Source: Streptomyces tardus (GTDB lineage Bacteria > Actinomycetota > Actinomycetes > Streptomycetales > Streptomycetaceae). From it: a stretch of DNA of 64,000 nt. Below, in pieces: positions 49,665 to 54,828 of the stretch. Below the pieces are notes generated by a model. It was given only the letters and a program-made list of their open reading frames with translations. It ran no database searches and was not told the DNA's origin. The position numbers and the translations under genes are program-made. Numbering within the stretch: the first letter of the stretch is position 1; each line of letters starts with the position of its first letter. The stretch spans positions 186,001 through 250,000 of the forward strand of contig NZ_JAELVF020000001.1 in assembly GCF_018101125.2 (NCBI RefSeq). Reading direction: 5' to 3'.

Positions 49665-50702
49665 TCAATGCATCCGGGAGTTCACCGGCTCGCCGGGTGG
49701 TCGGCGGACGGATCCGCGGAGCCGGGCGACAGCACGGCGCTGCGCCCAGAGCCAGACCCCTGCGGTGGCCAGCACCATCAGAATGATTCCGGGCACCATC
49801 GCCTCACCGTGTCCGGAACTGCGGTCGATGGTGACCTCGCTGGAGAAGAAGGAGGCGACCAGGAACAGGATGGTGTTGTTCACTGCGTGCAGCACGACGG
49901 CCCCCTCGATTCCGCCGGTGCGCCAGGTGATCACCGCACACGCAAACCCTGCGACGAACGTGTAGACGACCAGCCACGGGTCTGCCAGACCGTGAATCAC
50001 GGTGAACATCAGGTTCGGCACAAGCAGAGCCAACAGCAGGGCGAGTGCGGGCTGCTTGGCGAAGGAGCCGAAGCTTCGCGCCAGGAGACCGCGCGCGGCG
50101 TACTCCTCACCGGCGGCCTGCAGGGGGCTGGTGAGCAGCACGACCACGAACAGAACAAAGGTGCTCATCAGCGTGGCCGGCGGCCCGCTGACACCGGCCG
50201 CCTCGCGATTCAGGGTGGTCCAGACGATGCCGTACGCGATCCACACCGGCACCAGTGCGCCGGCCAGGGTCAGCGCGAGCTTCCACCGGAAACGGCCGTG
50301 CACCGAGTGCATCCATCGCCCGGACTGCCCGAACAGGAGCCGCTGCAGACCGAGGGAAACCGGGACCATCAGTGCGATGGCGAGATTACTGGCGAGCAGC
50401 CGAGCCGGGCTCATCGTCACCACTCCGTCGCCCGGCGTCTCCGGCGGCACCAGGCCGAGGTCGAACGACTCCGAGACGAAGACAAGTCCCCAGGTGAGCG
50501 TGAAGGTGCTCACGACATAGGCGACGGGGATCAGCACGATCGCCAGCACCGCTTTCCACCAGCGGTAGTCAGGGGCGAGCAGGAACCGATGGTATTCGGT
50601 CGGCCCCGAAGGCAGGGACTCCGAGCCCTCGCGATCGCCGTCAACGACGCTCCCGTTCGTCGCGGGTATGGATGAGCGGGGACGGCGGTGGTCTCGTGGC
50701 AT
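49665..50702 (-). CDS. CPBP family intramembrane metalloprotease
   Basis: A 345-residue polytopic membrane protein of the CAAX-protease/bacteriocin-processing (Abi) family. A hydrophilic N-terminus to about residue 45 is followed by about eight helices. The family motifs are intact: EExxxR in AAGEEYAARGLLAR, the second-motif histidine in FTVIHGLADPW and HxxxN in VLHAVNNTILF. Members process lipidated or peptide substrates and often give self-immunity or stress functions. The ribosome site GAGGAG precedes the ATG. A TetR-type operator copy lies 167 bases upstream. Confidence 0.92.
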   Translation of the reverse strand: MPRDHRRPRSSIPATNGSVVDGDREGSESLPSGPTEYHRFLLAPDYRWWKAVLAIVLIPVAYVVSTFTLTWGLVFVSESFDLGLVPPETPGDGVVTMSPARLLASNLAIALMVPVSLGLQRLLFGQSGRWMHSVHGRFRWKLALTLAGALVPVWIAYGIVWTTLNREAAGVSGPPATLMSTFVLFVVVLLTSPLQAAGEEYAARGLLARSFGSFAKQPALALLLALLVPNLMFTVIHGLADPWLVVYTFVAGFACAVITWRTGGIEGAVVLHAVNNTILFLVASFFSSEVTIDRSSGHGEAMVPGIILMVLATAGVWLWAQRRAVARLRGSVRRPPGEPVNSRMH

Positions 50703-51785: not shown

Positions 51786-53609
51786 TTGCGTACCCACCAG
51801 GTTCCGCCACAGCCGCAGGCCCCCTCACCGGCGGGCACCCCCGCAGAGGCCGAGGCTGCACGGAGAAGCGAAGCAAGCAGGCTGCTGTGCGCGGGAACGT
51901 ATCTGGATCACCGGTACCGCGACCGGGTGATCGACACGTTGTACCGCAACGACCACCGAGTCGTGGCGCCCTCCTTCGGTTTCGACGCCTCCCGCGTCCT
52001 GACCCACGCACTCAAGGCGCGGCGGGTGGCAACGGCCTGGGCCCTGGCGGTGACCGCCCTCATGGCCATCGGAGTGGCCGCCACCGGCACCTGGATGCTG
52101 ATCCTGATCCTTCCCGGACTGCTGCTGACACTGAGCGCCCATGCCGATCGGCTCGCCCTCAGCTCGCCGGGCCGTCGCCGCCGCCTGTCGTCCTTCGCTC
52201 TGCGCTGGTTCAGCCGGCTGCTCCTCACCTGGCTGGTACTCGTCACGGTGTGGCAGGCACTGGGCGTGTCAACGGATGATGACGTGAAGGACTCCGAGGG
52301 GAAGAGCGCGGACGCGGAGCAGACCAAAACGAGTGATATCGACGCGAACAATGCCGGTGCGGACGGTACGGGCACTCTGCAGAACGACGAACAGGAAACG
52401 GGCTTCGAGTTTGGGGATCTGTTCCCCGAAGCGCTCCTACCTCCCGACCAGTTGGAAGCGTGGCTCGGGTTGCTGGTGCTGCTGGCGCTGGGGGCGTGTG
52501 TCGCCGGCCGGCAGCTGCAGTTCGTCCAGCTGCTCCGCAGCGACCTCTCCGCGCGGGTGTTCTCCGACGTCTCCGCAGATCCCGCGGAGCGGGCCCGGAA
52601 ACCCCGTTTGTCCTGGGTTCTGCGCCGCATCCGGAGCGAGCAGCACTCGCCGCTGGTCATGTACCACGAGGCGCGCCCCTTCTGCGGCGCCGGCGTCGCC
52701 CGTGACCCCTGGTCCCTGGCGGTCGAACTGCGGCAGGAGCGCCCGGGCGCGGGCCGACCGATCGGGAACGCCGCCGTCCTCGCGGCGGTGCGGCCGTACA
52801 TCGAGCAGCTGCGCGAGGTGGCCGGCTCCTCGCAGAGGGACGGCCATCCCGTCCGGGACCGCCTGCGTCAGCTGGAGATCGACGAGTGCGTCTTCCTCCC
52901 GATGGAGGGGCTGCGCCGCCGTGAGGAGGCGCCGTACGACCGTGCCTCGTTCGAGGAGCACCGGGCACGCGCGACCGAGGAGGGCGGCGAGATGCGCCGT
53001 CACTTTCTGCGGATCAGAGTCAGCGGGTGGGAACAGGGCCTGGTCGTCACCGTGTTCGTACGGGTCCACACACAGGGCAGGATGCTGATGCTCGAGGTCG
53101 CGCCGCACACGCTTCTGCCGGTGCGGGCCGATTTCAAGGACGCCGACCATCTGCTCTACCGGTTCGCCGACGTGAACAGGTTCGGCAAAGCGGTCCACAT
53201 CTTCACCATGGTGGCCGGCGCGCCGGGAAGTGCCCTGATGACGTTGGGCCATCAAGGTCTCAGCGCCTGGCGTCGAATGACCGGTGAGGACGACCGGTCG
53301 CAGACGGACGGGCCTGCCCTCTCGGTGCGCGAACTCGCCTCGGAGCCGAAGGGTTCGCTGTTCCAGACCATGGACGTCGATCGGTATCTGAAAAGCATTC
53401 AGGACCGCATCGCTTACGGAGTGAAGACCGCACTCGCAGAAGCCGGTTACGAGACGGACGAGTTCACGCAGAAGGTGATCCACGTCAGCAACGGCGGCGT
53501 CAACATCGACTCCGTCGTGGACAGCACTTTCGCCGTCGGCACGCACGCGCACGCCACCACCGACGGCGCGCAGTCGCCGTCCCCGAGGGGAGCCAGCAGT
53601 GGCCAGTGA
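51786..53609 (+). CDS. Unknown 607-residue membrane protein, first gene of a three-gene operon
   Basis: I do not recognise a family. Residues 1-75 are cytoplasmic-looking, with two helices at about 81-98 and 101-118 and a third at 137-160. A strongly acidic, Asn/Glu-rich loop spans 162-218, and a fourth helix is at 222-242. A large soluble domain (250-560) contains FVRVHTQGRMLMLEVAPHT and ADHLLYRFADVNRFGKA. The C-terminus has VNIDSVVDSTFAVGTHAHA (572-590), also found at the start of the next protein. The apparent start is TTG 51786, with AGGGAG four bases upstream; no ATG or GTG fits. The next gene overlaps its end by 11 bases. Confidence 0.8.
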   Translation: MRTHQVPPQPQAPSPAGTPAEAEAARRSEASRLLCAGTYLDHRYRDRVIDTLYRNDHRVVAPSFGFDASRVLTHALKARRVATAWALAVTALMAIGVAATGTWMLILILPGLLLTLSAHADRLALSSPGRRRRLSSFALRWFSRLLLTWLVLVTVWQALGVSTDDDVKDSEGKSADAEQTKTSDIDANNAGADGTGTLQNDEQETGFEFGDLFPEALLPPDQLEAWLGLLVLLALGACVAGRQLQFVQLLRSDLSARVFSDVSADPAERARKPRLSWVLRRIRSEQHSPLVMYHEARPFCGAGVARDPWSLAVELRQERPGAGRPIGNAAVLAAVRPYIEQLREVAGSSQRDGHPVRDRLRQLEIDECVFLPMEGLRRREEAPYDRASFEEHRARATEEGGEMRRHFLRIRVSGWEQGLVVTVFVRVHTQGRMLMLEVAPHTLLPVRADFKDADHLLYRFADVNRFGKAVHIFTMVAGAPGSALMTLGHQGLSAWRRMTGEDDRSQTDGPALSVRELASEPKGSLFQTMDVDRYLKSIQDRIAYGVKTALAEAGYETDEFTQKVIHVSNGGVNIDSVVDSTFAVGTHAHATTDGAQSPSPRGASSGQ

Positions 53610-53955
53610 CCACACCCAGCCGCACGTCAACATCGGCGACGTCTCCGGCAGTACGTTCGCCATCGGCAGTCACGCACGGGCCGAGACCAATCACGGCGCC
53701 GGAACACGCGACGAGAGCAGCGAGGAGCTCCTCGTTGCGGTCCGGGAGTTGAGGGCGGACCTGACCCGTGTTCGGGCGAGTCCGCAGACCGCCGACCTGG
53801 ACGCGACCCTGGCCGACACGGAGGAGGAGATCGCCCGCACCGGGAGCGCGGGCGAGGGTCGTCTGGCGCGGTTGCGGGAGCTGCTGAGCTCCGAAGCCTC
53901 CCTGGCCACCGTGCTGGCGTCGGCGGGGGCCGTCGCAGGTCTGCTGGGTCTGTGA
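53599..53955 (+). CDS. Small DUF5955-like coiled-coil protein, second gene of operon
   Basis: A 118-residue protein. The N-terminal motif VNIGDVSGSTFAIGSHARA (10-28) matches 12 of 19 residues of the C-terminal motif of the upstream protein. A charged helical segment follows (about 40-85: SSEELLVAVRELRADLTRVR and on), then an Ala/Leu-rich hydrophobic end (LATVLASAGAVAGLLGL) that could insert in or lie on a membrane. It resembles DUF5955 proteins of streptomycetes, as I recall; no function is known. The GTG start overlaps the preceding stop codon, with AGGGGAG upstream. Confidence 0.78.
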   Translation: MASDHTQPHVNIGDVSGSTFAIGSHARAETNHGAGTRDESSEELLVAVRELRADLTRVRASPQTADLDATLADTEEEIARTGSAGEGRLARLRELLSSEASLATVLASAGAVAGLLGL

Positions 53956-53964
53956 GCCGGCGGG

Positions 53965-54828
53965 ATGAGTGAGTCGGAGCGCTACTGGAACGAGGACGCG
54001 CAGCAGTGGGAGGAGCGCGGCGGTCGCGGCACGCCCGTCGTCACGGACGCGTCCCGCACAACGGCTTCGAAGGGGCGGCTCGGCGCTTCCCGTTCGGTTG
54101 ACCTCCGAGCGTTGGTGGCTGCGGTCGTGGCCATCGGTGTCGTCGTGGTGGTGGTCGTCGCGCTGGCCACAAAGGGCCCGTCGGGCGAGGAGTCGAAGAA
54201 GCCCGCCTCCTCCGATTCTCCTTCCCCCTCCGACTCTCCGCTCCCGACCGACTCCGGCTCGCCGTCCCCCTCGGCCACCGGGCCGCCTCCCGGCGGCGAT
54301 CCGTCCTCCCTGCCCTCCACACCTCCCGCTCCCGGTGTTCCCGACGGATACGAAGCGGTCGCGGACCCGACAGAGGGGTTCAGCACTGTGATTCCCCAGG
54401 GCTGGAGACGGGTCGAGCATTACGTGCCCGGAAGCGATCTCTTCACTGTCACGTACAAGGACCGCGCTGTCAGCAAACTTGTCGAGGCGAATCAGGTGCT
54501 CCGAGTCCTCCGTCTGAGCGAGCCCACCGTCGATGAATCCGTCAAGGACCTGACCGAGTTCGCCGGGAATTTCAGTTCACCTCCCGATCCGAAGCCGTTC
54601 CACTCCGGCGCCCTCCACGGCAAACGGATGGAGTACGTGCTCACCGAGCCGAGCGGCCCGAGACCCCACCGCGTCGACATCCACTTCAAGGCGGACGACG
54701 GGAACCTCTACCGGGTGCTCGTGGAACACGACGGTGGAGACGCGCAACGGGCGAGGTGGAGGGCAACCTCAGCCGCAGAGCACTTCTGCTCCCCCAACGC
54801 GTCCTGCGGCAGGCTGGGAAGCCCCTGA
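53965..54828 (+). CDS. Unknown single-pass membrane protein with extracellular domain, third gene of operon
   Basis: A 287-residue type II-like protein. A short cytoplasmic N-terminus (MSESERYWNEDAQQWEER) is followed by one membrane helix (about 48-68, Val/Ala-rich) and a Ser/Pro/Asp-rich linker to about 125. An outer domain (130-280) with GFSTVIPQGWRRVEHYVPGS follows, and two Cys near the end (HFCSPNASC) could form a disulfide. Similar outer domains occur on streptomycete Ser/Thr kinase and sensor proteins, but no kinase is here. It starts nine bases after the previous gene, so the three are one operon. Confidence 0.78.
   Translation: MSESERYWNEDAQQWEERGGRGTPVVTDASRTTASKGRLGASRSVDLRALVAAVVAIGVVVVVVVALATKGPSGEESKKPASSDSPSPSDSPLPTDSGSPSPSATGPPPGGDPSSLPSTPPAPGVPDGYEAVADPTEGFSTVIPQGWRRVEHYVPGSDLFTVTYKDRAVSKLVEANQVLRVLRLSEPTVDESVKDLTEFAGNFSSPPDPKPFHSGALHGKRMEYVLTEPSGPRPHRVDIHFKADDGNLYRVLVEHDGGDAQRARWRATSAAEHFCSPNASCGRLGSP

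Follow-up and report, generated by a model that had tools for sequence, protein, structure and literature searches.

Matched motifs on neighbouring proteins of a candidate NLR-independent signalling operon in Streptomyces tardus

The window, the 64,000-nucleotide stretch of the Streptomyces tardus genome analysed here, contains three co-oriented genes that we refer to as A, B, and C (Table 1). As a sequence-only reading of the window had noted, A and B overlap by 11 bases: B begins at a GTG (53599) inside A, and the stop codon of A ends at 53609. A ribosome-binding-like sequence lies six bases 5' of this GTG, and a scan of the operon for a sigma-70 promoter and a terminator found neither. Upstream of the operon, and divergent from it (49668-50702, minus strand), is a gene for a 345-aa multi-pass membrane protein, which we take to be CPBP/CAAX-type protease-like and which is not a conserved neighbour.

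TABLE 1 Features of the A-B-C operon, in window coordinates
Feature	Position	Strand	Description and basis
Gene A	51786..53609	+	607 aa, ORF; constant membrane-anchored component
Gene A membrane part	52056..52508	+	Hydropathy and AF2 helices 68-158, 222-252
Gene A tail motif, VNIDSVVDSTFAVGTHAHA	53499..53555	+	Residues 572-590
Ribosome-binding-like sequence before B, GAGGGGAG	53585..53592	+	Read from the sequence
Gene B	53599..53955	+	118 aa, ORF; N-terminal motif, helical body, hydrophobic C-terminus
B head motif, VNIGDVSGSTFAIGSHARA	53626..53682	+	Residues 10-28
B helical body	53713..53952	+	AF2, hydropathy, hhalign; hydrophobic end at residues 100-118
Gene C	53965..54828	+	287 aa, ORF; TM residues 49-67 (hydropathy), low-complexity linker, extracellular PsbP-like domain

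The AF2 model of A (pLDDT, 82.7; pTM, 0.81) consists of an N-terminal helical membrane part, a mixed alpha/beta domain at residues ~290 to 555, and a disordered tail that bears the motif. Hydropathy marks residues 91-118, 145-163, and 223-241 as hydrophobic, the last two of these segments being separated by an acidic loop; together with the arginine-rich flanks, this loop points to a cytosolic position of the C-terminal domain and motif of A, on the same side of the membrane as B. Domain searches found no recognized sensor domain in A, and no Pfam match above the cut-off was obtained for any of 43 A relatives. When A, B, and C of the window were compared with Pfam, NCBIfam, PADLOC, and PHROGs, nothing was significant except a weak likeness of C to PsbP and T7SS-associated proteins. 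PDB sequence profiles likewise gave nothing significant for A or for B, and Foldseek returned no match at an E value of <0.001 with the A model as the query. A START/Bet v1 fold was considered for residues ~300 to 555 of A, for which VIA re-alignment gave weak matches (1ifv and 5yqp), and was set aside because a resemblance at Z scores of 5 to 6 is too weak to claim.

In B, AF2 places helices at residues 39-117, and the motif is disordered in the predicted monomers of both A and B. The gene is conserved 3' of A in relatives, the closest of which share its design of motif, helices, and hydrophobic end. Foldseek, queried with the B model, found generic helical bundles only (none at an E value of <0.001), and no known effector fold was recognized in window B. 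Profile comparisons make a relationship between the helical body and DUF5955 probable: the DUF5955 profile did not match window B itself at an E value of <0.1, matched 9 of its 39 relatives weakly (best, 1.1e-3), and matched 13 of 35 partners from sister clades (best, 3.8e-12), while hhalign aligned window B to the DUF5955-like partner proteins with a probability of 76 and an E value of 2.3e-5. An additional, truncated B-like copy with a motif lies between A and B in L046 (genome G072) and also in L013, near position 2667.

The third gene had been described as giving an extracellular sensor-like domain. C is a conserved operon member: of 56 loci in the wider clade to which the window locus belongs, about 42 carry it 3' of B in the same orientation. 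It was not found in any of the 12 TIR-type loci described below, and a role as the sensor for the helical-B type is plausible but a guess. Its N-terminus, predicted to be cytosolic, contains RYWNEDAQQWE (53980-54012), and homologues share W[ND]xxxQxW[EV] before the transmembrane helix. C is dispensable for the pairing principle set out below. A second protein of the W[ND]xxxQxW[EV] type is encoded upstream of A in L041.

The tail of A and the head of B are identical at 12 of 19 motif positions, in agreement with the original observation. In a BLASTP comparison of whole A with whole B, this region stood out (13 of 22 residues identical, 16 of 22 positive; E value, 2e-5), the second-best local match having an E value of 1.4. 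A 22-column profile of the motif, searched against the whole 6.2-Mb genome, found only the A and B sites (1.6e-11 and 5.6e-9) before the next hit at 0.41; both window sequences sit in the profile, so their own E values are flattering and the missing third site is the informative part. The same profile gave 37 matches in 22 of 61 genomes of the genus Streptomyces. Thirteen genomes had two or three matches no more than 400 bases apart, and 8 of these 13 were judged by spacing and frame lengths, which fit A-B pairs. Nine matches appeared to be single, and all nine proved to be at A loci once the sequence was inspected. In eight of them, a downstream B is present whose motif falls below the threshold, having drifted together with that of its partner (for example, SAKDSAIGIGDHNTLT in A and SVTGSAFAIGDHNTVT in B of L118, and IGRADNSSFAFGDHARAET in A and IGRADNSAFAFGANARAET in B of L119); in the ninth, L121, the contig stops just past A. 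The motif is thus confined to adjacent A-B pairs and does not occur mostly in unpaired genes, and we rejected the idea of a common, stand-alone motif because the genome-wide and Streptomyces matches fall at such pairs.

To compare loci, we gathered them by homology to A, without using the motif. A matched motif was present in the gene next to A across 89 A loci. Its type differs radically among loci (GSTFAVG, GNGIAIG, SAFSVGGSG, MSGGAVATG, and NNNGGTVNSGTQ are examples) and is matched inside each locus, and the aligned segments are rich in G, A, S, V, N, T, and Q. The mean local score of the A tail against the B head was 77 for own partners and 40 for others over the 89 loci. For the first 39 pairs, the own-partner mean was 72.6, compared with 49.3 after permutation, and none of 10,000 permutations scored as high; restricting the exchange of partners to similar A proteins still left 72.2 against 64.4 (0 of 5,000). 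By clade, matching was strongest in the TIR clade (104 against 44), followed by the remaining clades (73 against 45) and the window clade (72 against 48 when exchanged), each with 0 of 10,000 permutations as high, and a uniform clade with two repeats showed a small excess (72 against 68.5; 100 of 10,000). Among 35 divergent loci, 33 pairs beat all 200 shuffles, L141 and L148 being the exceptions; B was chosen in these loci as the best-scoring downstream frame, and the scores are therefore inflated a little. Five motif-less control paralogues given the same treatment never beat the shuffles. The two motifs of L072 are poorly matched. In seven genomes that carry two systems, the average score was 75 for own pairs and 36, close to background, for cross pairs. 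This covariation is what direct or shared recognition would require, and homotypic recognition between A and B is well supported by these comparisons.

The motif-less control is a paralogue of A that occurs in the window genome and elsewhere in the Streptomyces family and forms a separate clade (support, 100). Six of these paralogues (L078 and L159-L163) have neither a matched partner nor a B-like neighbour. The paralogue, whose copy in the window genome is at L078 (G000:C2:4782500-4791000), may reveal what the A core does alone.

The partner of A is replaced in several relatives. In 12 loci of one A clade (support, 99), B consists of the motif and a CAP12/Pycsar-type TIR domain, with E values down to 6.2e-29; these proteins are also matched by the PADLOC candidate models PDC-S35. 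Our literature search found no paper on PDC-S35 or DUF5955. In a single case, the partner is the motif joined to EAD1 (L169:2953-3438, minus strand; E value, 1e-13), which links this type of motif to EAD conflict systems. Another clade has two copies of the motif per B. The gene after A in L147, L150, and L153 encodes a short protein of motif-like repeats without a recognized domain, which is perhaps a pure scaffold with the effector elsewhere.

The closest named relatives of the operon are in Streptomyces. At an E value of ≤1e-10, relatives of A are patchily distributed within the order (62 of 119 genomes); a class-wide survey, which was a single-protein search, found them in 10 of 118 genomes and added four further families. 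In many relatives (L036, L041-L044, L047, L049, L052, and L053, among others), although not in the window genome, the operon lies directly 3' of malate dehydrogenase. Plasmid copies are rare, with 4 records. This adjacency and the rarity of plasmid copies favour an old chromosomal system over a mobile island gene.

The sequence-only reading had likened the arrangement of A and B to that of bacterial amyloid signalling motifs and effector-associated modules. The comparison holds in that a motif is paired between tail and head and relatives carry TIR or EAD1 as B. The short amyloid signalling motifs BASS1-10 belong to two-gene clusters of the Bell/NLR type (Dyrka et al. 2020; PMC7889193, PMC8086366). 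As described there, such clusters resemble A-B in having a motif of ~20 to 25 residues common to one C-terminus and the neighbour's N-terminus, in their overlapping genes, in their presence in filamentous actinobacteria, and in the use of TIR among the effectors (PMC7889193, PMC8086366). On the same accounts, they differ in that the constant partner in A-B is a membrane protein without an assigned family and no NLR/STAND protein is present, and in that the output protein has its motif at the N-terminus, whereas the BASS output has it at the C-terminus. No match to NB-ARC/NACHT or any other NTPase was found among 43 members of the A family or 39 of the B family. Effectors of amyloid signalosomes include Bell, CHAT, and TIR proteins (PMC7889193); set beside Bell, a helical domain with a hydrophobic helix and a C-terminal motif, window B consists of helices that finish in a hydrophobic stretch, and its motif is N-terminal. 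In a RHIM/BASS3 comparison, a single BASS3 peptide scored against all motifs at a mean z of 0.48, which is chance level.

EAD systems join a constant core to a swappable effector through a matched module (Kaur et al. 2020, PMC7159879). Like them (PMC7159879), A-B has the same module on the core and the adjacent effector, with adjacent copies most alike, and one partner is a fusion of the motif with EAD1. Unlike them, A-B is coupled by a short, highly variable motif, the EADs being folded domains of the alpha-helical or alpha+beta kind. The published EAD cores VMAP, GAP1, and iSTAND were not found, and EAD models did not match window A or B, EAD1 occurring only in L169, beside the motif. The two-gene EACC1 system is also membrane linked and actinobacterial, with a constant and a variable component (PMC7159879). 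It differs from A-B in that A has several hydrophobic segments, no EACC1 match, and no caspase partner; no EACC1 or caspase-type Pfam match was obtained in the A or B families. TIR effectors of CBASS and Pycsar (PF10137) are of the same family as the TIR of sister-clade B proteins in the 12 loci, but in the latter the motif and TIR form one protein, which is the partner of A, and PF10137 was not found in window B. HET-s/NWD2 is a fungal amyloid signalling system (PMC7889193). A-B resembles it in motif layout and, in one clade, in having tandem motif copies on one partner.

We propose, with a probability of roughly 0.6, that A and B, together with C where it is present, form an NLR-independent signalling operon in which a constant, membrane-anchored A recruits a swappable B by homotypic amyloid-like motifs. 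A would be the constant component, with the motif on its predicted cytosolic C-terminal tail, and B would be the output, with the matching motif at its N-terminus: a helical protein with a hydrophobic end in the window, and TIR or EAD1 in relatives. Upon activation of A, possibly together with C and its extracellular domain, clustered A tails would recruit and template B via like-with-like beta (amyloid-type) stacking, and B would then act, the simplest outcome being that the cell is killed or halted. The sequence comparisons document near-exclusive pairing, matched diversification, insulation of two systems within genomes, and swapping of the output. From these patterns, we strongly infer direct contact between the A tail and the B head. 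We hold with moderate confidence that this recognition is of a beta or amyloid nature, since the segments are rich in G, A, S, V, N, T, and Q, near-self-identical, tandem in one clade, and arranged in the layout of known amyloid motifs. The direction of the signal, its trigger, the activation of membrane-located A, and an output of cell death or growth arrest are put forward more weakly.

The motif might instead be a docking strand that pairs by beta-augmentation, 1:1 or in a small oligomer, without forming amyloid, in which case A would simply hold B at the membrane or regulate it there. Covariation and insulation demand specific recognition only and not polymerization, and the motif is disordered in both predicted monomers; the A and B segments, however, are near-copies of each other and not complementary, share the composition given above, and are repeated in some B proteins, like self-templating motifs. 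We regard this explanation as unlikely, although it deserves real weight. That both motifs bind one third protein, and stay alike without mutual contact, is improbable. A shared ligand would likewise force matched change, and C or an unlinked protein could serve, but C is absent from the TIR loci, where matching is strongest, and the ligand would need to keep pace with motifs of dozens of types. There is also no third carrier of the motif in the genome, although a binder need not carry it. The likeness could, finally, be a functionless relic of duplication or a product of gene conversion, as neighbouring copies in the same orientation could recombine. Identical A and B residues used the same codon 278 times, with 294 expected, in the window clade and 391 times, with 365 expected, in the first set; same-codon use near the expectation from codon usage indicates that the likeness is kept at the protein level and not by recent conversion, the amino acids being matched despite divergent DNA, and we consider this explanation very improbable.

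A further question is whether the operon is an immune or cell-death module at all, or instead regulates the envelope-stress response or development of Streptomyces. The frequent, stable site beside malate dehydrogenase, which is not a defence island, counts against the proposed signalling module and would suit a regulator, as would the few plasmid copies and the lack of a PADLOC match for window A and B. Also weighing against the module are the lack of a recognized sensor domain in A and of a known effector fold in window B, and the poor or small matching in L072, L141, L148, and the two-repeat clade. Patchiness, fast matched change of the motif, and replacement of B by TIR or EAD1 are, on the other hand, conflict-system-like, and a regulator has, in our judgement, a lesser but appreciable chance of being correct. 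Returning to the NLR-independent signalling operon, the family might tentatively be viewed as a new class of bacterial innate-immune signalosome, with membrane-anchored non-NLR receptors, swappable TIR, helical hydrophobic, or EAD1 outputs, amyloid-type templating, and many mutually insulated motif channels, two of which sometimes share a genome.

A literature search that was thin on subscription papers and did not extend to preprints found no paper on the A family or the operon. The layout itself is of a known kind, that of amyloid signalosomes and EAD coupling, and the proposed receptor family is new. Whether bacterial signalling amyloids exist independently of NLRs has been posed as an open question in a review (PMC7889193). 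The operon family is a candidate for such a system, because no NLR was found on testing, coupling does not run through a folded EAD, and no paper was found. It offers two small genes, a motif-less control paralogue, and naturally occurring variants of the motif with which specificity could be swapped; its TIR versions offer a measurable enzymatic output. If the proposal is true, the family would provide a new receptor family for bacterial immunity and a naturally occurring collection of self-recognition tags that are insulated from one another.
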